Below are positions 15,717-58,957 of a stretch of DNA of 64,000 bases, one piece after another (the first letter of the stretch is position 1; every line of letters begins with the position of its first letter). A program made the position numbers and the translations under genes. Below the pieces are notes generated by a model, which ran no database searches, was not told where the DNA came from, and worked only from the letters and a program-made list of their open reading frames with translations. Source of the DNA: Bactericera cockerelli (lineage: Eukaryota; Arthropoda; Insecta; Hemiptera; Triozidae); assembly GCA_024516035.1 (NCBI GenBank), contig CM044959.1:18682525-18746524 (forward strand), given 5' to 3'.

Positions 15717-15979
15717 AGCCAGCGTCGATGGCATGTTGAATACACCGGTTCCCTTCAGAACACAGAAGTTAAGCGACATCCAGCGAGGTTAAGACTTGGA
15801 TGGGTGACCATTCAAATTCTAATTCTCGTGACGCTGGCTTTTCCCGGCCCCACTCAGGCTGGGTGAGGTCAATGTGAGTAGCAGGTTTGTGAGTTTCCTG
15901 CGAATGGAGGGTAAAACCCCCGTCGTGATATGACCATGGCAGTTGAAAGCGACGTTAAACCTCACTTTAAAAAAAAAAA
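15717..15979 (+). repeat. 5S rRNA-derived SINE, copy 2, with poly(A) tail
   Basis: The head keeps strong 5S rRNA features: GCCAGCGTCGATGGC at the start, AAGTTAAGCG (A box), and ACTTGGATGGGTGACC (C box), closing with GACGCTGGC, which pairs with the start. Next come the shared SINE4 domain (CAGGCTGGGTGAGGTCAATG, GAATGGAGGGTAAAACCCCC) and an A tail. The 13-bp direct repeat AAGGAGGATATCT at 15704-15716 and 15980-15992 is its target duplication. This is the better preserved of the two copies. Confidence 0.95.
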
Positions 15980-26554: not shown

Positions 26555-26627
26555 CGACCTTGCCAGGATTCGAACCTGGAATCTTCTGATCCGTAGTCAG
26601 ACGCGTTATCCGTTGCGCCACAAGGCC
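26555..26627 (-). tRNA. tRNA-Arg (ACG)
   Basis: A 73-nt cloverleaf on the minus strand. The acceptor is GGCCTTG with CAAGGTC (one G-U pair), discriminator G. The D arm contains GCGCAACGGATAACGCG. The anticodon stem TCTGA/TCAGA has loop CTACGGA, so the anticodon is ACG and reads CGU/CGC after A-to-I editing. The T arm CCAGG-TTCGAAT-CCTGG holds a perfect B box. The transcript would end at a run of seven T within 10 nt. It looks intact and functional. Confidence 0.96.
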
Positions 26628-32799: not shown

Positions 32800-32947
32800 G
32801 AAATGTTATGATAATTGTGTTAATCACTTTCGTGATATCACAACTACTCAAACTCGCTTTAATAAATCTACGCTGAAACCGGGACTTGAACCACCGACCT
32901 CCAGGTTACAAGTCCGCTGCCTTATCGATCAAGCTACTAAGGTCGGT
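32800..32947 (-). repeat. SINE2 copy
   Basis: Minus strand: ACCTTAGTAGCTTGATCGAT, GGACTTGTAACCTGGAGGTC, GGTTCAAGTCCCGGTTTCAG, then GTTTGAGTAGTTGTGATATC. One of the best preserved copies. Confidence 0.88.
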
Positions 32948-33424
32948 TTATTCTAGAAATGTGTTATAATTTTCATTGTGTACGAGCTAGGAATTGAGTA
33001 AAATCCTGTCTTTCTTTTTCGTCTGGGGGTGCTGCAGTTCCGCAGCTCCTTTACCGGCCGCGCCTGGATATACATATATTTTGATATACATATTGACATA
33101 CGGTAAAACTATGACAGTGAAAGGTGAAGTATTTTGCATATTCTAGGTATTAGACTAACAACCGTGTCCCGAGAAGTAGGTACTCCATAATGACAATTTT
33201 TTGACATAAATAATTTTCGTATGTATTTTCGTTGGCGAAGTTGATATATGTATTATCTGAAGAAAAATAAATGTACACGGTGAAAAACCAACTGCGAAAT
33301 TTAACATAGTATTGTGATTAATTAAACATACGGGGGACCCTTACAAAGTTAGCATACGCGATATTTTCGACTTTAGCATAAAGTGGTTAGCATAATTTAT
33401 GCTAACGAAATTTGTCAAAAGTCG

Positions 33425-33446
33425 TGACGTCATAGTTGTGACGTCA
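33425..33446. promoter_or_regulatory. Two TGACGTCA octamers in the left arm
   Basis: TGACGTCA occurs at 33425-33432 and 33439-33446; a third copy lies in the right arm at 43738-43745. The octamer is the known CREB/ATF site. Placement in both arms suggests a host or transposase binding site. Function is inferred only. Confidence 0.5.
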
Positions 33447-33658
33447 TTACTTTTATGCCAACGGATGTATAAAGTTATGCTATTGTTCAATTCAATTCAA
33501 TTCATTAATAGCATAATAACATGTTTAACTTGCATAGTCTATGCTCTGAATTTCATTTGTTTAACATAACATTATACGTATCTTAGCATAAAGTAATTCG
33601 CCTATCATAAAGATTATGCATACTTGCTGTGTCATTTTCATACCAGTATACGAAGTAA

Positions 33659-34030
33659 GCATAGTGTTATGCTAACTGTTATGCGAAGTAGGCATACTGT
33701 TAAAAACCGCATGCTAACGTTGGCATAGTGTTATGCTAACTGTTATGCGAAGTAGGCATACTGTTAAAAACCGCATGCTAACGTTGGCATAGTGTTATGC
33801 TAACTGTTATGCGAAGTAGGCATACTGTTAAAAACCGCATGCTAACGTTGGCATAGTGTTATGCTAACTGTTATGCGAAGTAGGCATACTGTTAAAAACC
33901 GCATGCTAACGTTGGCATAGTGTTATGCTAACTGTTATGCGAAGTAGGCATACTGTTAAAAACCGCATGCTAACGTTGGCATAGTGTTATGCTAACTATT
34001 ATACAAAGTAGGCATAACAATATACGAACG
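33659..34030. repeat. Left subterminal array, 64-bp units
   Basis: Units start at 33659, 33723, 33787, 33851, 33915 and 33979 with GCATAGTGTTATGCTAACTG and include GCGAAGTAGGCATACTG and CCGCATGCTAACGTTG. The middle units are essentially identical; the sixth is partial and diverged. Repeated short words in inverted pairs (GCATA/TATGC) are what is expected of transposase binding arrays in CACTA elements. Confidence 0.93.
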
Positions 34031-34133
34031 TTGGTATGGTCACTATGCGACCCTTGGCATAGTGACTATGCTAACGTTGGCATAGTCACTATGCCAACGT
34101 TCGCATATTCAATATGCGAACGTTCTCATAGCA
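34031..34133. repeat. Short inverted GCATAGT/ACTATGC pairs
   Basis: Alternating words such as TTGGCATAGTGACTATGC, GGCATAGTCACTATGCC and GCATATTCAATATGCGAACG form several small palindromes between the 64-bp array and the long palindrome. They look like additional protein-binding sites of the transposon end. Confidence 0.75.
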
Positions 34134-34198
34134 GTATGCAAAAGTATGCATACAGCTATACGTATGATACGTATAGCTGTATGCATACTTTTGCATAC
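34134..34198. repeat. Perfect palindrome, 31-bp arms, 3-bp centre
   Basis: The left arm (34134-34164) begins GTATGCAAAAGTATGCATAC and is matched without mismatch by its reverse complement at 34168-34198 around TGA. It lies at the inner border of the left subterminal region. It could extrude as a cruciform or bind protein dimers. Confidence 0.95.
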
Positions 34199-34417
34199 AG
34201 CTATACATATACCTATGTATTTGAATGTACAGAAATTTGCAGGATAGCCTCCGACTAAGTGCATAAATATTTTGCACTCGGACGGAAGTCATCTACATGC
34301 ATATTCCTAGTCATACAAAGTCATAGGATATATGTATTGCCCTATGTGTGGAAAATGAAGAAGAATTCAATTATTCAAGTAAATATAATGTACAACACAT
34401 TACACTCTTTATTTACA

Positions 34418-34515
34418 GAAATTACACATCAACAATTTTTAAGTTTACAGAAATTACACATTAACAATTTTTAAATTTACAGAAATTACACATCAACAAC
34501 TTTTTATTTGCAGAT
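34418..34515. repeat. Three ~36-bp tandem units downstream of the transposase
   Basis: TTTACAGAAATTACACATCA or a near copy recurs three times, separated by ACAATTTTTAA. Part of it (about 34437-34460) is repeated in inverted orientation at 41023-41047 in the opposite arm. Confidence 0.8.
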
Positions 34516-34628
34516 ATTACACTATATATACAGTTAAGAAAAAATACAACTTATATGTTACATTATCGGGGAGCGGTAAAATGGGGTAATAGAAACAGTC
34601 AGGTGTCTTTCAGGTATATTAGTATACC

Positions 34629-34634
34629 TTTATT
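34629..34634 (-). terminator. Candidate polyadenylation signal of the transposase gene
   Basis: AATAAA on the minus strand about 90 bp after the stop codon. Further AATAAA-like words at about 34500 and 34405 could serve instead. Confidence 0.45.
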
Positions 34635-34725
34635 ACGTATACTCTGTACAGATGAACCTGTATAGCTCTTAGATCACCAGACAGTTAACAGTTATATCAT
34701 TTATAAAGTTTACAGTTATGCCTAC

Positions 34726-37155
34726 CTATTCTATGTTGCATCTTAAAGTAACATAAAAAGTGAAGTTGGGTTGAATGGAAAGCGTATGTGGAATGGGAGA
34801 AAATAGGTTTTCCAGAGACAAGTACTCTTTCTCTTCGGTCTGTTGTACTACTTTGTATGCTTGAAAGTGGTCAATAAAGTATTGACATTGTAATTTAGAA
34901 CAAATGAAAAAAACTTGTCCGTTACAAACAAAAATGTCTTCTACTTGAACAAAAATTGGAAGCATAGTGTCCATACAAAGATCTTTCATTAGAATGCTAG
35001 ATTTTTCTATTTTACAATTTTTCGTTTCCAACCATGTAATGGAAACGAACAAATCTGGGGAACTAACATTGAATTTGGATTTCAAAAACTCTGAATGCTC
35101 TGTGGAAATGCTCGATTTCCTACCAAAAACTATCCCCTCTACCTTTGAAGTTGATGATAAGTAATGATGTAATGTCAATTGGTTTCGCGTTGCAACTGTT
35201 TTGCAAATGTTAACTCTAGTACAAGCCGCACGAGCAGCTATTTTTGATACTCTATGCTTAGCTTCAAATCTCATGGTGGACAAAGAAACTAATGGACCAA
35301 ATTTGAGAAACATATCTGGATAATGTAGAAGGAAATGAAACTTAGGCTTCAGGTTCTCTTTTACAACATCACTAAAAGTCCACAAAAATAGTTCAATTAA
35401 ATGTCTAAGAGGAGCTATTTCATCCTTTGAAAAGGAACGTACCATTAATTTATCTAATAGTTTCCTCAACAAGACATAAAGGTCCCAGACCCTGTCGTCT
35501 TCAGGAACGTAATACCCAATAATAAGACCAAAATATTTGACAAAAACCATCATTTCAGATCCTGAGCATTTCAGTTTGATTGTGGCAGATCCATCATCAA
35601 ATAAAATATTTGAAGGTTTATTTCGGCTATCCGGACCGAAATCGAAGAAAAAAATTTTTCTTTGTAAGAGTTCAATAGTCACAAATTTTTTTTCTTTAAT
35701 TACATAATTTACAACGTAAGATAAGACATAACGACAACAACCTTCTAAATAATCATGAAGAATATCAACAGCAACATTGTCAAAGAGAGAAAACCCATCT
35801 AACTCTAACCAAACACACTTTTCTTTTATTCCTGTTTTTGAAGGATCGTTTACTTCCAGATCTCTGTTATAAGATTCCATGTCTCGCAATAGAGTAGTAT
35901 CTAAAGTATGCATGGTTGCAAGTGCACTCTTGTCAACAGAACAAATTCTACAACAATAATTACCTATGAAACTCTCAACGAAACCCAAAATACCGTTTAA
36001 GCCCAAATTATCACCAGTGATACTAACGACATGGAATTTTACAGTGCCCTGGAAGTATCTATTGTGAACAGATATACCGTTACTACTTAGAAAATTTAGT
36101 TTCTGGATAATCGGGCTAAAAATAGCCTTGTTCCCAAAGGTACGTCTATCAGACGCATGGAACATCGACAACATAATAATGTTGTTCAACTGAGAAAACC
36201 AATATGGTGGGAGAAATGGAAGAGACAAATAAACCCCACCCAGTTTTTGAATTCCTGCATGGCTACCTAAGGGATTATTTACTTCGAAATCATCAAAGTA
36301 TAAAATTAGTGGGAGATGCATTTCATTTTCTGATTGAACAAAATTTCTTCTTTGCCAAGCATTTCCTTGAACAATGTTACTCATTAATTCAGATGAATTG
36401 TTAACCATTCTGAAATAGTCAGAAATGCCCTTGAAAATGTGATCAAGGGATAAAATTTTTCCCAAAACCAACTCAACTGGTATCAACTGAAGAGTACAAG
36501 GAGAATGAGACAAACCTCTTCTAACCATATCTAAACGAGACCCTATTGTAATTTCAACGGGTAAAATTAACGTTCCCAAAATCTGGAAATTCAGAATTCT
36601 TTTATGGTCTGAATTCAGATCAGACATTTCGTTTTCAGATGCTACGAACAAGTCTCTTAAATACAAGTGATAATAACTCTTAGGGAACCCTGATTTATCT
36701 ATCAAATCAATAACCCTGGTTAAATGATTATTATAGGATGTCAAAAATTCTTCAATGTTAATTACAGAATTTTGAATGGTACTTCTTGGAATGCCTGGAT
36801 TTGCATATAGAGAAGTGACTAACTTTCGCAAAGAATCTTTCACCGAGCTTGCTGTGTTCGCTATTTCACGAGACACATCAATTTCCATGGAAATAGTACT
36901 AGCAAGTGGATTATCATCTCGTATGAAAGAATCATTAAGCTCAGATGGTTCACAATCATGATGTAATGTTTTCAAATGCTTGCGTAGTGCATGCAAATTT
37001 GAATAATGTCGACGACAAGAAGGCGCTCCACATGTGAATCGGGAGGAATTACCATTTCTAGCACGTACAGGACATGAGTCCTTAATGTGCTTACAATATG
37101 AAAAAATAGTTTGGAACAATTTTTGACAGTCCTCGCAAGTGAACATAGTAAACAA
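34726..37155 (-). CDS. CMC (CACTA/EnSpm-like) transposase, 809 aa, intact
   Basis: A single open frame. Residues 7-28 (C7, C10, H23, C28) and 42-65 (C42, C47, H60, H65) form a zinc-finger pair, likely for DNA binding. The catalytic core has FDDFEVNNPLGS at 287-298 (D288/D289), GDNLGLNGILGF at 381-392 (D382), DILHDYLEG at 464-472 and RFEAKHR at 629-635 (E631, candidate third acidic residue). KPKFHFLLHYP lies at 603-613. This order is that of a widespread animal protein family related to plant Tnp2, usually labelled uncharacterized. It is expected to cut and join the element's CAC ends in the nucleus. It lies 323 bp behind the SAM-domain gene on the same strand, as TnpD and TnpA share one unit in plant En/Spm. 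No stop or shift interrupts it, so it may be active. Which acidic residues are catalytic is inferred. Confidence 0.9.
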   Translation of the reverse strand: MFTMFTCEDCQKLFQTIFSYCKHIKDSCPVRARNGNSSRFTCGAPSCRRHYSNLHALRKHLKTLHHDCEPSELNDSFIRDDNPLASTISMEIDVSREIANTASSVKDSLRKLVTSLYANPGIPRSTIQNSVINIEEFLTSYNNHLTRVIDLIDKSGFPKSYYHLYLRDLFVASENEMSDLNSDHKRILNFQILGTLILPVEITIGSRLDMVRRGLSHSPCTLQLIPVELVLGKILSLDHIFKGISDYFRMVNNSSELMSNIVQGNAWQRRNFVQSENEMHLPLILYFDDFEVNNPLGSHAGIQKLGGVYLSLPFLPPYWFSQLNNIIMLSMFHASDRRTFGNKAIFSPIIQKLNFLSSNGISVHNRYFQGTVKFHVVSITGDNLGLNGILGFVESFIGNYCCRICSVDKSALATMHTLDTTLLRDMESYNRDLEVNDPSKTGIKEKCVWLELDGFSLFDNVAVDILHDYLEGCCRYVLSYVVNYVIKEKKFVTIELLQRKIFFFDFGPDSRNKPSNILFDDGSATIKLKCSGSEMMVFVKYFGLIIGYYVPEDDRVWDLYVLLRKLLDKLMVRSFSKDEIAPLRHLIELFLWTFSDVVKENLKPKFHFLLHYPDMFLKFGPLVSLSTMRFEAKHRVSKIAARAACTRVNICKTVATRNQLTLHHYLSSTSKVEGIVFGRKSSISTEHSEFLKSKFNVSSPDLFVSITWLETKNCKIEKSSILMKDLCMDTMLPIFVQVEDIFVCNGQVFFICSKLQCQYFIDHFQAYKVVQQTEEKEYLSLENLFSPIPHTLSIQPNFTFYVTLRCNIE

Positions 37156-37478
37156 TTATAGTAAGCAAATTGAAATAGATTAAAACAACAAAAATACGAT
37201 AAAGGAGCTCAAAATTTGTACCTACAAGTAAACTAAACTAAAACAAATATATTAAAAAAATTTCTGTGTAGGGGGCTGACACATGTAGGGGAAGGTGGGG
37301 CAAAATGGAAAAGACAAAAAGAAAATGTTTTCAAATATTGGAGGAAGAGAGCAGAAAATAGAGCAAGTTTAACAGCTCAAAAAGAGGATTGTAAAACCGA
37401 GACTTTGATGGTCTGAAATTTAATTAAACTTAACCTCCTTTAGTCCCCACATTCCCCTACTTTGAGCAGACAAATTAC

Positions 37479-38294
37479 CTACCTATATGCCCTGGCTGCT
37501 CTATTTGCTTTAGGCATCAATGCAAGGTCAGCTAAAAGTTTAGTAGTCGGTGCATGAATCTTATCATACTTGGTGGATATTTCGTAGAAACCTAGCTGCA
37601 GTGTAAGCCACAGATGTTGACTCTCTTCTGGGTAATTACAATGCGTTACAAAGAAAATCTTGAAACAAAGATCTACAGCTGCTACAATTGAATTTTGAGG
37701 TTGTAGAATGTCATCTACAACACAATAAACATTGGTTGGATTTTTAAAATCACCTACATACATGACATAGGGTAAAGTGGGTCTGTACATTTTAGTCAAT
37801 TTTTCAATCCGACTCACCCTGCAGGTTTCTATGTTAGAAGGACTGGACACATGCATTATGAATCCCTCGCAAACTTCAGACCTTGATGGTTTCCAAGAGT
37901 AACTCTTCACCTTTTTTGTGGCAGGAACTGATGTGAGGTAGGGCAGCAATAGCAGGCACTGCGCAGTCCGAACGTCCATGTTAGCGTTGGGTGACAACTC
38001 TTCTAGGAAACTGACGAGATCACTGGATACAAGATCTTTCCGAGAGGCCCTCTCTTTCACGGCTTTTGCTAGGGTGATGATCTTCTCCCTGTGATGGAGA
38101 AGGCCTTCAATCAAGCACGTTGTTCTTCCAGGATGCATTATGTCAAAGTCCATGTTTATCTAGAACAAAGAAGAACACACGAGATAAATAATCAACTATC
38201 ATTGATAGTCAAGAGAAAGAAAAAGAGATAAAGAATGAGAAAAGAAAGTGAGATCGAAATAAATAAAAAATGAATAGAAAAATAAAAATAAACG

Positions 38295-38341
<47 letters not shown>

Positions 38342-40717
38342 GAGAGGGATAGAGAGAGAGAGATAGAGAGAGAGAGAAATAGAATTGAAAGTAAAATAAA
38401 GTGAGAAAAATAGTACTATCCCACATAACAAGAAAATCACCGATTTTCTTAGTGTGGGTTGTTTAGGGCATGTTACTCGTATGTCAGTAAATAATAATTA
38501 TCTATTCAGTATTCAAGTTAATATTAAGGACTTATTGTAAAAATGTAATTTCATATAATATCAAAAATCAAAAAAGAAATAACTTACCAACACAGGTCCT
38601 CTTTCAGGATCCCGCAGAATACGATATGTGTTGAAGTACTGGATGATTGATTGAAATTTCTCATTGCCCGCCTGCAAACATTGGAGTCTGTCCCTTGATG
38701 TCTCCTCCCAACGGAGTTTGATAGTCTCGAAGGAATCACTTGGAGTAGCAGTCTCTAACCATTGCAGATAGTTTTGAACTACGGTGTTTTCTGAAAACAA
38801 AACAACACATGTTATTAAAAAAGTCACGTAGCCCCACATCTGAGATATAAAATTATTTTTTTATAATTTTTTTTTAGTTATTTGTACTAATCACTATTTT
38901 GATCACAACTACCCAAACTCGCTTTACCAAATATATGCTTAACCTGGTACTCGAACCTCCGACCTCCAGGTTACGAGTCCGTCGCCTTATTGATCAGGCT
39001 ACTGAGGTCTGTTATAAGTTATCTAATTGTAGTTTAAGTATATACATACCTACGGTAATGAATGTGTCTGTTGCAATGCTTTTGTTCAACTCCGAGTCCT
39101 CCTGCTCTTGGTTTTCACGGTTCTGACTTGGCCTTCGCTTCTTGAACTCGATGACACCTTCCTTCTTTCCTTTATTTCTGAGATTTCGCCAGATTTCATA
39201 CAGCAAGCCGGACGTGGAGCTCCGGTAAGGCTTATCTTTCTTTGAAGAAAATGCTTCAGGTAGATCATTGTCGCTGTCATTGGAACGGTACAATTTGAAC
39301 CAGATGGTGGAGGTTTCTCGTTCAAAAGGAAACTGTTCTATGATTAGGTCCCGTATTCTCATGAAGTCGATTGTTGAAAGTGTCCGCTGGGGGCAGTGTG
39401 AAAATATGTACTTCATGATTGCTTGAGCAACAGCCTGCCGATCTAATGACATGAAGGAAGTCATGTTGAGGTATGATTGCTTCTGCGAATTTGATACTCT
39501 TGAGAGCGCTCTATGAATCAGTGGTTTGTCAAGTGCCACAAAGATATTAGAGGTGTCGGGCATATTGCTTCCTGTAGTTACATTGCTTGGTGTTCCTTCA
39601 GGTGTCAAGGCTGGCGTGAGTCCAGGTGTCAAGACTGGCGTGAGTCCGGACTCTGGTGTCACAACTGGTGTGGTGTGCCCACCCACCGGTGTTGATGTCC
39701 AAGACCCCGAAGAACTCCATTGTGAAGAGTCATAATGAGACGATGAAGCAGTTCTCCATGCATCTAATATGACACTACTTGAAGAATGGCCAACGTTGTC
39801 TAGAGTTGTGTACGATCCTCCGTCTTGCAGAGATTGGCCATGTGGGAACTGATGTGATGTGCTTGGTTGAAATTGAATCATCGAGGTGTCTTCTTGTAAG
39901 AATTGGCTTTGTTGTTCACACTGTTTAATCCATTCGTCCCGTTTTTTGCGTAGAATGATGATGTGAGCAACACAGTCAATGAGCAGTTTCATCTCCGCCG
40001 GCTCCATGTCCCTCAGAATGTCCGTGGTGATTGGGTTATCTGAAACAGACATGAGTACCAATATATACTAGTGGATCAAACTGATCAGGTATTCAGGTTA
40101 GGCATTAAATTTGGCATTAAAAAATGCCCAATATGGGCTTTCAAATTTGGTAGGGGGCCCAAATTTTTCAAAATGAAATAGCCCTTAATACCAGACAAAA
40201 CATAATATCAAAATTTTATTTTTAAGGAATAAAAACTATACAGCAAAATTCCTTCGGCACGTTCAAAAACTATAGCGAAGGTAATTATTTGAAAAACAGC
40301 ATTTAATATTTCTCACCTGATTTCATATATTATATTTTGTTTTAAACAAATTAGATAACAGAGAAAAACGTGTTTTGGCAATGAAAACTGACTATCGAAA
40401 ATTTTGGTCGATTCCATTATTTTCCTTTCTTAAAGGACAAAGAAATTAAAGAGGTAACACTGGAGTCAGATTTAAATGAGAATTTTCCGAGGAAAGAATT
40501 GAAATAACTAAAAGGAAAGACTTTGAATAACAGTAAATTGGATATTACGAACAACCGTCGAACACTTGTACTGTCCAACAATGTAAATTTCGATTCGAAC
40601 CGTCGGAAATTTCAATTTTGTGTTAAAGGAAATAAAGGAAAACTTACTTGCAAATGTTTCCACGTACTGCTGTAGTCCCCAGGCAGTTAGAAGGTCTGAT
40701 ACTGATACACTGTCCAT
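37479..40717 (-). CDS. SAM-domain protein, SAMD3-like, four exons, 647 aa
   Basis: Exons on the minus strand: 40717-40648, 40039-39050, 38790-38588 and 38159-37479. Every intron begins GT (GTAAGT, GTATGT, GTAAGT) and ends AG, and the joins keep one frame to the stop. Exons 1-2 form a SAM domain (LLTAWGLQQYVETF, then ITTDILRDMEPAEMKLLID). Next comes a low-complexity Ser/Thr/Pro linker with TPVLTPGLTPALTPEGTP. The rest matches my memory of the SAMD3-like family: FNTYRILRDPERGPVL, INMDFDIMHPGR, LPYVMYVGDF and VAAVDLCFKIFFV. SAM domains mediate self-association; a role as a transposase partner or array-binding factor is inferred from position. Intron 2 holds a SINE2 and intron 3 a GA repeat. A donor-like AGGTAGGT overlaps the stop codon, so another C-terminus is possible. 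Position inside the element argues for a transposon gene and not a trapped host gene. Confidence 0.85.
38297..38382. repeat. (GA)n microsatellite in intron 3 of the SAM gene
   Basis: About 40 GA units with a few GATA interruptions, on the plus strand; it reads CT-rich in the transcript. The CT-rich frames here are not genes. Confidence 0.95.
38885..39013 (-). repeat. SINE2 copy in intron 2 of the SAM gene
   Basis: Minus strand: ACCTCAGTAGCCTGATCAAT, CGGACTCGTAACCTGGAGGT and GGTTCGAGTACCAGG, then the body GTTTGGGTAGTTGTGATC. It lies 37 bp downstream of the exon 2 donor, in the same orientation as the gene, and does not disturb splice sites. It must have entered after the transposon arose. Confidence 0.85.
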
Positions 40718-40841
40718 GATGAGTCTTCAAGAATAACCAACTCACACAAGCACTCGACAACAACTAATGAGGAAGAACCAAGGAGCACTTGACTTGATAG
40801 CAACTAATGAAGTAATGAGACATTGCACCCAGGTTAAGGTG

Positions 40842-40849
40842 CTTATATA
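40842..40849 (-). promoter_or_regulatory. Candidate TATA box of the SAM gene
   Basis: TATATAAG on the minus strand, about 125 bp upstream of the start codon. A start site near 40815 would give a 5' leader of roughly 100 nt containing two similar segments with CAACTAATGA and GCACTTGAC/GCACTCGAC words (minus-strand complements). Confidence 0.6.
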
Positions 40850-41219
40850 GGACCTTTGAACATCAAAGGTTGAATCCTCTTCGAGGGTACACTCCACTAA
40901 GAAGATTTAGATTACATAATAGGTACAAATTTTGAGCTGAACTAAATATTTTAAGTAACTAAGATACTATGTGAACAATAAGAAACTGGGTACATTTTTT
41001 TAGAATAGGTAGGTAAAATTTAAATTAATGTGTAATTTCTGTAAACTTAAGCAAGATTTTAATTTTATCATTAAGCTATTTCATTTTAGACTTTTTAGCA
41101 GACAATTCCTCTCCTTCGCCTGACGTCTCCTAAAATTTCGATCACTGACATTACGAACGTACTTAATACAACCTTGCCTTGTCACACTTAAAAAGAAATG
41201 ATCGAACCGAACACAACTA

Positions 41220-41507
41220 TCTTTATTGGAAACATAAAACCTTAGCATGAAATCATACAAACCGCCCTATTTCTATGCTAAAAATTATGCAGACTTTACA
41301 TAAGTCTATACGAAGAATGTCAATCATGTTAAATTAGCATGAATCTATAGCTCTTATTTTTATGTTTGTATAGTTTTATACGAACAGCCCTCATTGGCAT
41401 GAAATGCATGCGTAAAGTAGCATACAATTACTTTATATGCGAAACACGTATGGTTTATGCTAATAGTTTAGCATAGCAGTTATGCTAAGACTGTGAGGTA
41501 TACGAAT
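41220..41507. repeat. Right arm with dispersed TATGCT/AGCATA words
   Basis: Noncoding, with many ATGCTAA, GCATGAA and TATACGAA words spaced by 15-40 bp, the same vocabulary as the left arm. Probable subterminal binding region upstream of the SAM gene promoter. Confidence 0.6.
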
Positions 41508-42040
41508 TTGGCTTGAAGTTATGTCTTCAATTTTCCTGTATGTATAACTCTATGCAAACATTTTGCGTTGACATAAAAAGCATGCAGAATTAAGTATAAA
41601 GTGCCTTTTTGTACGAAAAATGCATGGTTCATGCCACCAAGTTTATGTTAAGCATGAGCCATGTACCAATTTGGCTTGAAGTTATGTCTTCAAATTTCCT
41701 GTATGTATAACTTTATGCAAACATTTTGCGTTGACATAAAAAGTATGCGGAAATAGGTGTAAAGTGCCTTTTTGTACGAAAAATGCATGGTTTATGTGAC
41801 CGAGATTATGTTAAGCACGAGCGGTGTACCAATTTGGCTTGAAGTTATGTCTTCAAATTTCCTGTATGTATAACTTTATGCAAACATTTTGCGTTGACAT
41901 AAAAAGTATGCGGAAATAAGTATAAAGTGCCTTTTTGTACGAAAAATGCATGGTTCATGCGACCGAGATTATGTTAAGCACGAGCGGTGTACCAATTTGG
42001 CTTGAAGTTATGTCTTCAAATATTTCATTTGTATAACTTT
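41508..42040. repeat. Right subterminal array, 163-bp units
   Basis: TTGGCTTGAAGTTATGTCTT starts at 41508, 41671, 41834 and 41997, giving three full 163-bp units and a partial one. Each has ATGCAAACATTTTGCGTTGA, CATAAAAAGTATGCGGAAAT and GTGCCTTTTTGTACGAAAAA. The unit differs in length and sequence from the 64-bp unit of the left arm. Confidence 0.93.
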
Positions 42041-42076
42041 ATGTGTGTGCATCGATACTGTTATGTTCAGGATCGT

Positions 42077-42077
<1 letters not shown>

Positions 42078-42112
<35 letters not shown>

Positions 42113-42342
42113 CCACATACACACACACATTACACACACACAGTACACACACACAGTACACACACATACATACACACACGCAGTACACACAAACACACAC
42201 ACACACATACATACACACATACACATACATACACACACACACACAGTACACACACACATACATACACACACACACAGTACACACACACACAGTACACACA
42301 AACACACACACACATACATACACAGACACACACACAGTACAA
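42078..42342. repeat. (CA)n microsatellite with GTACAC and CATACA interruptions
   Basis: About 265 bp of ACAC with regularly placed CAGTACAC and CATACATA. Frames across it (His/Thr or Cys/Val rich) are translations of the repeat. Confidence 0.97.
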
Positions 42343-42734
42343 ATGAAAAATATTTGGACAAAAAAGTGGTTTTTTGTGAAATTGGTATGAAAAGTTAAAA
42401 GTTTAACAATTGTCTTTAGTAATTCAGGTAATTTTTATAACATTTTACTCTCGAACATTTTGCTCTCAGATCATTCATTTTTGCTGCAGAACTCCCGTAA
42501 GTTGAGTTGATCATTTTTCCCCAATTCAGGTGGCCACTAATAATTTGTAGGTATATAGGTGCTCATATAGGTGCTCACTACAGCATTGTAGGATTTTTTC
42601 CAGTAAATCCAAATCTAATTATATAATCCATCTTTTCTGTAATTGCTGAGGACAAGTCGCTATGGACAATACCTCCATATATAGATTGTCGTTACGAGGC
42701 TGAATGGGTCCCGAAAACATCCAAACCCATGTTG

Positions 42735-42815
42735 ACAAATTATTGTCTCCGCCGGGATTCGAGCCCGGGTCTAACGAGTGCAAAGACTACTGAGCCATGT
42801 GCTGTGGGAGCTGGT
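42735..42815 (-). repeat. SINE6 tRNA-like head, copy 1
   Basis: Minus strand: CCAGCTCCCACAGCACATGG, then GACCCGGGCTCGAATCCCGG, a tRNA-like A/B box layout. A second, internally deleted copy is at 43510-43575. Confidence 0.6.
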
Positions 42816-43509
42816 CCCGTCGTATATTAACATCAGGTATATGAATTGTACACACAATACTTTATACTCCACATAGGTGTTTCGAAGTTCAGTTCAAATG
42901 TTCCAAATGTCATTAAAAAAGGTTCTTTCACTCGTATACCTGCGATCCATGCAAAAACAGAGGATGACCTCTCTCCATTAGTGACCCAATTGATATACGT
43001 CGCCGGCTGGTCAATATGAGTGGTGTGGTTATACATAACATAATATAGGTATATATGCTTTAAATTTCCGAAAGCCTCATCACCGTTAAATATACCTTTA
43101 ACCTTTGCCTCTAAAATCCTTCCATTGTGTATTATTACCTAATATTAATAGATTTCAGAGTCCATTTCTCGAGTCTAGCCCATAGCACTATTTCATTTAT
43201 TTATATAAGCTACGCAACGCTCAGGTAGGTATAACAGGTAGGTTTAAAGGTATATTAATGTGTTTCCCACGGAATCTGTTTGAGTAATTACAACACAAAA
43301 GCTAAGAATAATATAGGTATTAGATAATATTCCCGGGAATTACGTTTAAGGATTATTTAACATGGGCGAAACACATTTGAAAATATTATCAAGGTTTCTA
43401 TATGATTAATTTTTTGTAAAGGTATATCACATTATAATATAATACGTATTGTAGTATCCCCAGCTAAATGTAGAACCCTCGTCAGTAACTTAAACAGTAA
43501 CCAAACCAT

Positions 43510-43575
43510 CACGGTTGCAAATTATTGCCCCCGTCAGGGTTCGAACCCGGGTACTCATTCATGCGGGAGCTGGAC
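43510..43575 (-). repeat. SINE6 fragment, copy 2
   Basis: Minus strand CCAGCTCCCGCATGAATGAG, then ACCCGGGTTCGAACCCTGAC. The middle of the tRNA-like head is deleted. Confidence 0.55.
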
Positions 43576-43962
43576 TAGTTTAGCATATAATTCATGCTAA
43601 AGTATTTATGCTACCCTAAGAAAACAGTTATTTTATGTTAAGATTTTGTTAGCATGAAATTATACGAACTTCACTATACATGTTCCGCATAAAAAGCTTC
43701 TCTTAGCATACATGTGGCACTGTTAGCATACATGAGATGACGTCATTAAAACCTGTTGTATAAAATTAAGCTAATTTTAGCATAAAAAACTTTTATGCTA
43801 AAGCCATTTTTATACGAACGGCTCTTTTTGTGTAAATTATGCTAAAATTATGTATAAACGCGAAAAAATTGATTTTTTTTTTGCATAAAATATGCTAAAT
43901 TACTATAGTTTTTATGCGAATGGTTTTTATACAAACTTTTTAAAAAATCCTTTTCCAGCGTG
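43576..43962. repeat. Right terminal region of the CMC transposon
   Basis: Dense AGCATA/TATGCTAA words (for example ATTCATGCTAAAGTATTTAT and TTTAGCATAAAAAAC), a TGACGTCA at 43738-43745, and the end TTTTCCAGCGTG followed by TA. It mirrors the composition of 33276-33660. Confidence 0.7.
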
Positions 43963-44227
43963 TAGTCATATTCATAACTTTATTAAATTAGGCCTGCCAA
44001 AAATATCTAAAGCAAGGTAATCCAGTCAAATTTTTGGTACCACAGAAGTCATTTTAAATTAAATTACACTGATTTTTAAAAAATAATTCCTATTTTTTAT
44101 CGTTTCCTCCCTCTCTTGAGGATAGCAAAGACGGGATTGACTCTCTAATGTTATACCTTAAGAGATCTCATTTATTTAGAAAGATCTAAACTTGGAAACG
44201 ATGCGAATGACCTGTTAAAGCACTATC

Positions 44228-44230
<3 letters not shown>

Positions 44231-44275
<45 letters not shown>

Positions 44276-44279
44276 CACA
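44231..44279. repeat. (A)n(CA)n simple repeat
   Basis: About 31 A followed by nine CA units. It may be the expanded tail of a retroelement in plus orientation. Confidence 0.95.
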
Positions 44280-44521
44280 GTATAAGGTATTATAAAATAC
44301 ATAGAAGGATTAATGAATTATTTCATAATATAGATACTTACGCCCTTTTGTTGTAGAAACGGTTCCCAACACAAGTCACCAAACAGAATCATGAAACAGA
44401 AGACAATGTGAAAACTAATTAGAATTGCGAATTAAGAGAACTAGAGAAGAACTCGGTTTTGTTTAAATATGGAGGAAAACGACTTGAGGGATCTCCTAGG
44501 GTCCAATTATGATTATAATAA

Positions 44522-57409: not shown

Positions 57410-58957
57410 ATTCAAAGAAATGTCTCTCATGTTGATGAAGAATTTTATTTTCTACCTGCCTCACAGGATACCCTGTACAATATCATTTCTTCTCTAACTA
57501 AAAAAAAGGGTAGGGACAAATACGGGTTAAATTTGGATTTAATCTCAAACATTCAAGATATAATTATAACTGCACTTATGAAATTAATCAACTTGTGTCT
57601 CGCTGAGGGTACATTCCCTGATTGTCTTAAAATCGGTCTCATTCATCCGATTTATAAAAGAGGTGATATAAATGACCCCTCAAATTATAGGCCTATTTCT
57701 ATCCTACCAGTCATCAGCAAAATATTTGAAAAATTTCTGTCCGACCAAATTTGTTCTTACTTTAACTATTTTAAACTCTTCTCTCCTAATCAGTTTGGTT
57801 TCAGAAAATCTCTTTCAACAACTGATGCCATTGACTTTTTTAATAAATTTATATCGCAAACATACGATGAAAAGTTATATTTACATGCAACCCTATGTGA
57901 TCTTTCACGTGCTTTTGAATGTTTAAACCATTCGATCTTATTAGAAAAGCTCAAGCATTATAAATTTAATAATCTCAGTATTAATCTAATGGCATCTTAT
58001 TTGGAGAGAAGGTGTCAACAAGTACAGTTAGGGAACACTGTCTCAAACATAAAAATAGTATCCACGGGCGTGCCGACCGGTTCCATCTTGGGGCCCCTCC
58101 TCTTCTTGTTGTACATCAATGATCTTCCTGTTAACCTGCCCCAGTCGGCTAATGAAATGATTTTTGCTGATGACTCCACCCTTTTCGTACAAAGTACAAA
58201 TGAGAACTCATTACTGGCCAAAAGTAGGGAAACTCTACAGCGGGCACAGGACTGGTTTAATAGTAATAGGTTGCATTTAAATCGCACAAAGACACAGGAA
58301 ATTGTTTTTAGTTTACGTCGAATAAACTTCCCTTTAAACCCTCCTAATGTAAAACTTTTAGGATTTTTTATTGATCCCCAGCTAAAGTGGCATGCCCACA
58401 TTGATCATGTCGCGGGCAAGTTAAATAGTCGATTGTTTTTACTTCACCAATTAAAAAATCAAGTTTCTCCCACTGTATTGAAAAATGCATATTATGGTTT
58501 ATTTCATTCCTTACTATCATATGGATTGCTTCTCTGGGGCCATACCACTTACAGCCAAAAATTATTCATTCTACAGAAAAAAGCAATCCGTATTCTGGGT
58601 AGACTGCCATATAATGAACATGCCAAACCAAGAATGGAAATTTTAACACTCCCATGCATGTTCATTATTCAGTGTCTAACCCATTTAAAGAAGCATAGGG
58701 ACCAATATACTTCATTTGAAAATGTCCACTCTCATAATACGAGGCATAGAAATAACTTAGTCATTAATAATCATCGTGTTAATGCAGCTCGAAATGGTCC
58801 CAATTATCATGCTATTATATTGTTCAACAAATTGCCCCCACATATCAGGGACTTGCCACCAAAGTTATTTAAAACATGTATCACTAATTTTCTTAAAAAG
58901 CAGGCTTTTTATTCCTTAGAAGAATTTTTGAGTTGCAGCTTGAGTGATATGGTCTAA
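57410..58957 (+). CDS. Non-LTR retrotransposon reverse transcriptase, 5'-truncated, otherwise open
   Basis: The frame is open from 57410; no start codon is credible because the element is cut here, and the first leucine-type start is at 57533. Counting from 57533, RT motifs are: NYRPISILPVISKIFEK at 51-67, CDLSRAFECLNH at 122-133 (catalytic D123), GVPTGSILGPLLFLLYIND at 179-197, and FADD at 211-214 (D213, D214). A thumb follows with LLGFFIDPQLKW, then the C-terminal part with HSHNTRHRNN and ILFNKLPPHIRDLP. This layout is known from arthropod and other invertebrate jockey/CR1-type LINEs. The endonuclease domain is missing. Two positions differ from the usual consensus: E for D in AFE-C, and T for Q in PTGS. 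It makes cDNA from its own RNA when complete; this copy cannot move alone. Confidence 0.9.
   Translation: MQRNVSHVDEEFYFLPASQDTLYNIISSLTKKKGRDKYGLNLDLISNIQDIIITALMKLINLCLAEGTFPDCLKIGLIHPIYKRGDINDPSNYRPISILPVISKIFEKFLSDQICSYFNYFKLFSPNQFGFRKSLSTTDAIDFFNKFISQTYDEKLYLHATLCDLSRAFECLNHSILLEKLKHYKFNNLSINLMASYLERRCQQVQLGNTVSNIKIVSTGVPTGSILGPLLFLLYINDLPVNLPQSANEMIFADDSTLFVQSTNENSLLAKSRETLQRAQDWFNSNRLHLNRTKTQEIVFSLRRINFPLNPPNVKLLGFFIDPQLKWHAHIDHVAGKLNSRLFLLHQLKNQVSPTVLKNAYYGLFHSLLSYGLLLWGHTTYSQKLFILQKKAIRILGRLPYNEHAKPRMEILTLPCMFIIQCLTHLKKHRDQYTSFENVHSHNTRHRNNLVINNHRVNAARNGPNYHAIILFNKLPPHIRDLPPKLFKTCITNFLKKQAFYSLEEFLSCSLSDMV

Follow-up and report, generated by a model that had tools for sequence, protein, structure and literature searches.

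Analysis of the window (the whole 64-kb stretch of DNA examined) revealed an element of 10,687 bp (33276..43962) which, judging from its sequence and from predicted protein structures, looks like a two-gene cut-and-paste transposon of the CMC type (EnSpm/TRC-like), inserted at TA in an insect-type genome. It carries a transposase gene and a gene encoding a SAM-domain protein, and we give somewhat better than even odds (about 0.55) to the latter being an architectural helper, i.e. the counterpart of plant TnpA. The features of the element are listed in Table 1.

Table 1. Features of the element and its borders (window coordinates).
Feature	Position	Strand
TA outside left end (presumed target-site duplication)	33274..33275	.
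Left terminus, CACGGTGAAAAACC	33276..33289	+
Left subterminal array, 33 TATRCNAA sites in both orientations	33276..34219	.
Three repeats spaced 32 bp	34411..34509	+
Transposase, 806 aa, single open frame	34726..37146	-
BAH-like fold (predicted), transposase residues 672-799	34750..35133	-
RAG1/Transib-like core, transposase residues 97-671	35134..36858	-
C2H2-type zinc fingers, transposase residues 4-58	36973..37137	-
SAM gene exon 4, including stop	37479..38159	-
SAM gene exon 3	38588..38790	-
112-nt repeat in SAM gene intron 2, 84% to 32837-32948 outside the element	38902..39013	.
SAM gene exon 2 (remaining SAM domain, spacer, basic middle domain)	39050..40039	-
SAM gene exon 1 (start of SAM domain)	40648..40717	-
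TATA-like TATATAAG, ~125 bp upstream of SAM ATG	40842..40849	-
Inner repeat, single inverted copy upstream of SAM gene	41025..41050	-
Right inner subterminal array, 13 TATRCNAA sites	41230..42050	.
Array-motif-free block: CA microsatellite and pair of 35-nt repeats (42736, 43518)	42051..43560	.
Right outer subterminal array, 12 TATRCNAA sites	43561..43962	.
Right terminus, CACGCTGGAAAAGG, read inward	43949..43962	-
TA outside right end	43963..43964	.

Ends and subterminal arrays

Scanning of the left (32900-33419) and right (43850-44299) flanks for CAC ends revealed exactly one CAC/CAC pair, at 33276 and 43962, with TA on both outer sides. The termini agree at 10 of 14 positions; their terminal letters are CACGG and CACGC, respectively, and beyond the TA the third flanking base differs. 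The terminal pattern has exact matches only at the two ends from which it was itself derived, and a looser search (up to 2 mismatches) yielded 19 matches against 19 expected. The left end (CACGGTG-AAAAACC) resembles the heptamer and nonamer of the V(D)J signal, a likeness that was given no weight as evidence. Regarding classification, the CAC..GTG ends and the TA, presumed from this one copy to be a duplication, agree with the CA..TG ends and 2-5-bp target-site duplication of CMC elements, a range given for the wider CMCT group (PMC12730594). The ends lack the CACTA terminus and the 3-bp duplication that mark CACTA/EnSpm elements; of the marks of TRC elements, the 2-bp direct repeat is present, but the ends start with CAC and not with CCC.

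The motif TATRCNAA was detected 84 times in the window against 29 expected (none of 100 shuffles gave as high a count), and 58 of these sites are placed in the two-sided arrays; elsewhere in the element, none is found in 42051-43560. A 64-bp unit is repeated within the left array (33595-34080), and the right inner array contains 163-bp tandem copies (41480 to 42043). Further inward, a 26-bp inverted repeat (34439-34464 with 41025-41050) is 100% complementary. Its 21-bp core was matched 4 times in the window against 0 expected, and every one of these sites falls within the element. The arrays and the inner inverted repeat tie the two sides of the element together.

The motif-free block between the two right arrays is probably a later insertion, and its 35-nt repeats, like the 112-nt repeat in intron 2 of the SAM gene, look tRNA-derived. 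Such a block suggests that later insertions did happen, and the SAM gene and the transposase might likewise originate from different insertions, as two nested or abutting elements or their remnants. We regard this as highly improbable, as both genes lie together between the arms of the 26-bp inverted repeat and just 2 array motifs are present in the 34220-41229 region; nesting of two elements was considered and disfavoured on the first of these grounds.

The original prediction placed both genes between subterminal arrays and CAC ends with TA outside. The single CAC/CAC pair and the two-sided arrays bear this out, and the two genes are located inside both the CAC ends and the inner inverted repeat. 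Its description of the element as apparently intact holds for the two reading frames, but not for the right array, which is split by the motif-free block.

The transposase

The transposase frame, initially described as 809 uninterrupted codons, is indeed unbroken, although this length is counted from a TTG (37155-34726, minus strand); the first ATG (37146), with an in-frame stop just upstream, gives 806. Its proposed assignment to the CMC type is strengthened by the predicted RAG1/Transib-like structure and by the residues D285, D379, C399-x2-C402, H604-x3-H608 and E628, which are invariant (33 of 33). In this layout, the second D and the E of the DDE triad are separated by C(2)C and H(3-4)H, which is given as a mark of CMC elements and also of Transib (PMC12730594).

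In the structural model (pLDDT 86), D285 belongs to a strand and E628 to a helix. Foldseek analysis identified RAG1 as the best match, followed by Transib (9-15% identity in the rows), whereas both were absent from the best 60 of 119 solved structures in a sequence-profile search; the relation to RAG1 and Transib is therefore structural. The Pfam family Transposase_21 (cut-off 28.6 bits) was matched below its cut-off by the window transposase (E 0.075, 12.7 bits) and by the relative P0129 (E 1.3e-5, 24.9 bits). The tail of the modelled protein resembles the BAH chromatin-reader fold. A further Pfam match, to Pertussis_S2S3 (residues 26-66; 19.6 bits, cut-off 27), covers part of the zinc-finger region and was regarded as a chance hit.

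The SAM-domain gene and its product

As predicted, a four-exon SAM-domain gene lies ahead of the transposase on the same (minus) strand. All its splice junctions are GT-AG, the spliced product has 647 aa with the SAM domain at its N-terminal start, and the SAM stop is separated from the transposase ATG by 332 bp. Pfam SAM_1 matched residues 5-49 with E 7e-4 and 20.3 bits, just below the curated value of 23; the match reached 45.7 bits in the relative P0121, and no SAM_1 was detected at E 0.1 in 3 of 10 relatives scanned. Foldseek analysis of the SAM protein model yielded no match at E 0.001, and the rows with a probability near 1 were SAM domains; the middle and C-terminal domains were thus assigned to no fold, which does not in itself speak for their novelty. 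The top fold matches of the SAM domain were Eph-receptor SAMs, not filament formers, and the matches also included Scm/Sfmbt, PHC3 and L3MBTL3, which are of the Polycomb type.

Recurrence of the gene pair in other insects

With the spliced SAM protein of the window as the query, no relative was found at E 0.001 (7678 candidates, none scored). Relatives (n=14) were retrieved only with P0110 as the query, and the window protein is therefore divergent. Eight of the 14, including proteins of aphids, a butterfly and a beetle, are fused with this transposase in the gene model, with the SAM part first in every case. The recurrence of adjacent SAM and transposase genes, which had been suggested as a check, was thus observed in gene models of three insect orders (Hemiptera, Lepidoptera and Coleoptera); the joined models are annotation products, so this adjacency is read from predicted genes. 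The transposases of the joined models lie on both sides of the 126-tip tree. Divergence of the SAM and transposase parts is correlated, which could stem from host phylogeny alone. Since the pair recurs and is spread across the transposase tree, the pairing looks, on sequence comparison, old rather than local. No SAM part was present in the same protein in 117 of 120 listed transposase relatives, a figure that is uninformative about neighbouring genes.

The remaining 6 of the 14 relatives have no transposase part in the gene model, and two models include other domains (reverse transcriptase in P0126, DUF4806 in P0130), as might be expected if the SAM gene belonged to a multicopy family merely adjoining the transposase, or were a captured passenger with no role in transposition. 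This explanation seems clearly unlikely to us in view of the gene order, which is the same in all 8 joined models, the three orders among them included, the co-divergence of the two parts and their spread over the transposase tree, as well as the placement of both window genes inside a single pair of ends and a single inner inverted repeat.

Scans of viral contigs with the query proteins A1, A2 and P0039, and of genome contigs with A1, revealed no relative. Among the papers listed by literature searches (Repbase and most subscription journals excluded), none describes a SAM-domain transposon partner in its title or the start of its abstract, and the term 'sterile alpha motif' does not occur in the 20 listed of 378 papers that matched most of the SAM and transposon terms.

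Possible role of the SAM-domain protein

If the SAM protein is an architectural helper, binding of the TATRCNAA arrays would fall to its basic middle domain (or to the fingers of the transposase), and the SAM domain would link bound copies across both arrays, bringing the ends together. Once the ends are paired, the transposase would cut at the CAC termini, with its BAH-like tail tethering the complex to a chromatin mark. We infer this binding or polymerisation on the arrays. A single promoter ahead of the SAM gene might serve both proteins through alternative splicing or readthrough; alternatively, there may be two promoters.

Several observations speak against the helper role: the SAM domain of the window protein is under the Pfam cut-off and its best folds are those of Eph receptors, the zinc fingers of the transposase could bind the arrays unaided, the termini are only partly alike and start with CAC, not with the CCC of TRC, the right array is interrupted, and the analysis covered one genomic copy of the element. 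A somewhat improbable alternative is that the SAM protein is encoded by the element but regulatory, repressing or activating the element promoter or countering host silencing, with the transposase alone binding the ends by its fingers and cutting. The presence of C2H2 fingers in the transposase and the fold matches to Scm/Sfmbt, PHC3 and L3MBTL3 are consistent with such a role, as is the control of the Spm promoter by plant TnpA, mentioned in PMC1636069; the large two-sided arrays, on the other hand, would better suit a multivalent binder.

Extended to insect CMC elements in general, the helper role leads to a more tentative and rather doubtful proposal: that they form a conserved two-protein machine, composed of a RAG1-like transposase that reads chromatin through a BAH domain and an array-polymerising, end-pairing SAM protein, which would be an independently evolved analogue of plant TnpA and, as regards the division of labour, of RAG1 with RAG2. 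The 2006 description of animal CACTA relatives assumed a TnpA-like helper (PMC1636069). A recurring SAM-domain partner would be a concrete and conserved insect candidate for such a helper, making end pairing of large elements testable. The combination of a RAG1-like core and a tail that may read chromatin is also relevant to the way in which targeting modules are gained by RAG-type enzymes. Insect annotations would be affected as well, since some proteins that have no known function and are labelled 'SAM domain-containing' or 'C2H2-type' would be products of transposon genes.

Comparison with known systems

The element shares with plant En/Spm (CACTA; TnpD and TnpA) the presence of two element-encoded proteins, the CAC ends and a weak match to Transposase_21 (below cut-off in both the window protein and P0129). 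Repetitive subterminal arrays are also typical of En/Spm. In contrast, its partner is a SAM-domain protein, set apart from TnpA by description, and its ends are bordered by TA, whereas the duplication of CACTA elements is given as 3 bp (PMC4158355). The animal TRC elements (SmTRC1 and kin), described as CACTA relatives with 2-bp direct repeats at the ends and a relation to Transposase_21 (PMC1636069), are similar in the 2-bp repeat and, with a match below cut-off here, in the relation to Transposase_21. They differ in having TIRs that start with CCC in place of CAC, a start reported from three species only (PMC1636069). The partner proteins of SmTRC1, PrA and PrB, are reported to lack recognisable relatives among the other elements of animals or fungi (PMC1636069), unlike the SAM partner, which recurs in several insects; here too the proteins are set apart by descriptions.

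The transposase core links the element with RAG1/Transib/ProtoRAG through its structural match and the same DDE, C(2)C and H(3-4)H layout, although identity is low (9-15% in the Foldseek rows) and the partner is a SAM protein, not RAG2-like. A further likeness would be a second, chromatin-linked module, which in the RAG system is the PHD of RAG2. The RAG/Transib duplication is 5 bp as opposed to 2 bp. A 2-bp TA duplication is found in Mirage elements. PIF/Harbinger elements, which differ in the class of both transposase and partner, offer another two-gene likeness, with a transposase accompanied by a separate gene for a DNA-binding, Myb-like partner.

Structure of the candidate element

The original prediction placed two genes of a CMC-type transposon between subterminal arrays and CAC ends with TA outside, and this arrangement was borne out: the scanned flanks contain only one CAC/CAC pair, its termini match at 10 of 14 bases and are both bordered by an outer TA, and TATRCNAA arrays are present on both sides. 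The motif was picked by eye from these same arrays and its excess across the window (84 sites versus 29 expected) is therefore descriptive; the informative comparison is that of the arrays with the genes. No TATRCNAA site was found in 42051–43560. Independently of the arrays, a perfect 26-bp inverted repeat, with one copy on each side of the gene pair, ties both genes to one unit. Within the window, the 21-bp core of this repeat occurs without mismatch at four places (on the left three times and, in the opposite orientation, on the right once), where none was expected (100 shuffles).

The left terminus, CACGGTG-AAAAACC, looks similar to the signal heptamer of V(D)J recombination (CACAGTG) and part of its nonamer; this likeness is probably due to chance, though the core of the enzyme is RAG1-like.

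Coordinates of features in the window
Feature	Position	Details
Element, CAC to CAC	33276–43962	
Left end	33276–33289	
Left TATRCNAA array	33276–34219	33 sites; region shuffles: mean 1.2, largest 7
Right inner TATRCNAA array	41230–42050	13 sites; region shuffles: mean 0.85, largest 5
Right outer TATRCNAA array	43561–43962	12 sites; region shuffles: mean 0.44, largest 3
26-bp inverted repeat	34439–34464, 41025–41050	
Transposase	ATG 37146, stop 34726	minus strand
SAM gene	40717 to 37479	minus strand, four exons
112-nt repeat, 84% identical	32837–32948, 38902–39013	outside element and in SAM intron 2; looks tRNA-derived
Reverse transcriptase ORF	57533–58957	RVT_1, E 1.2e-29; probably a non-LTR element
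5S rRNA match	15718–15839	
Good tRNA matches (two)	1889–1960, 26555–26627	
Weaker tRNA matches (three)	7943, 13572, 14729	may be SINE heads

The predicted order of the genes was also retained. The transposase is an open frame on the same strand as the four-exon SAM gene and 332 bp downstream of it, but comprises 806 codons from its ATG, not 809. All three SAM introns are of the GT-AG type, splicing leaves an open frame of 647 aa, and the gene model is supported by sequence alignment of its product with P0069 (residues 6–541) and P0110 (residues 262–620), two joined models, i.e. predicted proteins holding both a SAM part and a transposase. A TATA-like box 125 bp upstream of the SAM ATG would fit transcription of both genes as one unit, the arrangement of Spm.

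Recurrence of the gene pair

The window appears to be animal DNA. Among the best 120 of 518 transposase relatives, the closest is P0001 (67% identical), the named ones all come from insects (psyllids, aphids, beetles, moths, a fly and a damselfly), and the first named is from the psyllid Cyamophila willieti (42% identical). These 120, together with 11 new proteins from the 12 matches to a P0110 query, formed a set of 131, in which 14 matched the window SAM protein or its relative P0121 at E 0.001. In eight of the 14 a transposase is present as well, and all eight have it after the SAM part; the seed was itself a joined protein and the length limits favour long models, so this proportion is not a frequency. 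The joined models are P0069 (Brenthis ino), P0110 (Aphis craccivora), the near-identical P0124 and P0125 (Semiaphis heraclei), P0127 (Acyrthosiphon pisum), P0129 (Macrosiphum euphorbiae), P0131 (Phaedon cochleariae) and P0066. The orders looked up were Lepidoptera, Coleoptera and Hemiptera; the other three named species are aphids. The joined models are taken as predicted genes in which annotation merged adjacent frames, and therefore show adjacency and order, not real fusion. Adjacent SAM and transposase genes recur in gene models of other insects.

In P0066, a fragment that shares 98.6% identity with P0126 is joined to a transposase that shares 91.6% with P0043; P0126 and P0043 each lie on a 2,776,424-base contig, presumably the same one. 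P0126 (M. euphorbiae) has a reverse transcriptase inside its SAM gene model, and in P0130 (Abscondita terminalis) the middle domain of the SAM partner is joined to a DUF4806 protein. Matches to Pfam DUF4769 were obtained for P0122 (E 4.6e-6, residues 12–235) and, below the cut-off, P0129 (7.8e-4, residues 88–150); judging by these matches, this family may include members of the SAM partner family.

Age of the association

The window and seven of the joined models were used to compare the identity matrix of the SAM part with that of the transposase part; P0066, with a SAM piece of 70 aa, was excluded. The two matrices were correlated (r 0.93, 27 of 28 pairs, one lacking overlap; Mantel p 0.0006), also without P0125 (r 0.88, p 0.003); host phylogeny could be an alternative source of this correlation. 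In a FastTree phylogeny of 126 transposases (125 proteins, partial sequences included, plus the window; six SAM-only proteins excluded), SAM-linked transposases occurred on both sides of the assumed midpoint root (4 of 86 and 5 of 40 tips). With this rooting, the association would therefore either go back to the ancestor of this part of the transposase family or have several origins.

Comparison with known elements

The SAM fold belongs to a class that often forms chains. The SAM protein might bind the arrays via its basic middle domain, SAM–SAM contacts would couple the two arrays, and the transposase would then cut at the CAC ends.

As a kind, CMC elements that carry a helper protein are already known. 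The literature searched (SAM plus transposon terms) yielded no SAM-protein partner of such transposons, and this partner is likely new in print; Repbase reports, a possible place for one, were outside the scope of the search. The interest lies mostly in the recurring SAM partner and the possible BAH tail (a predicted C-terminal fold) of the transposase.

PMC1636069 describes animal CACTA relatives with 2-bp repeats and reports that, for one of them, SmTRC1, the partner proteins lack relatives in other elements; PMC4298943 likewise mentions TRC elements with 2-bp duplications. Transposition of plant Spm, as described in PMC1636069, requires TnpA and TnpD, the former being stabilised on DNA by the latter. 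The anatomy of the present element follows this TnpA/TnpD logic and builds it from other components, namely long arrays on both sides, a nuclease resembling RAG1 and a SAM-fold protein.
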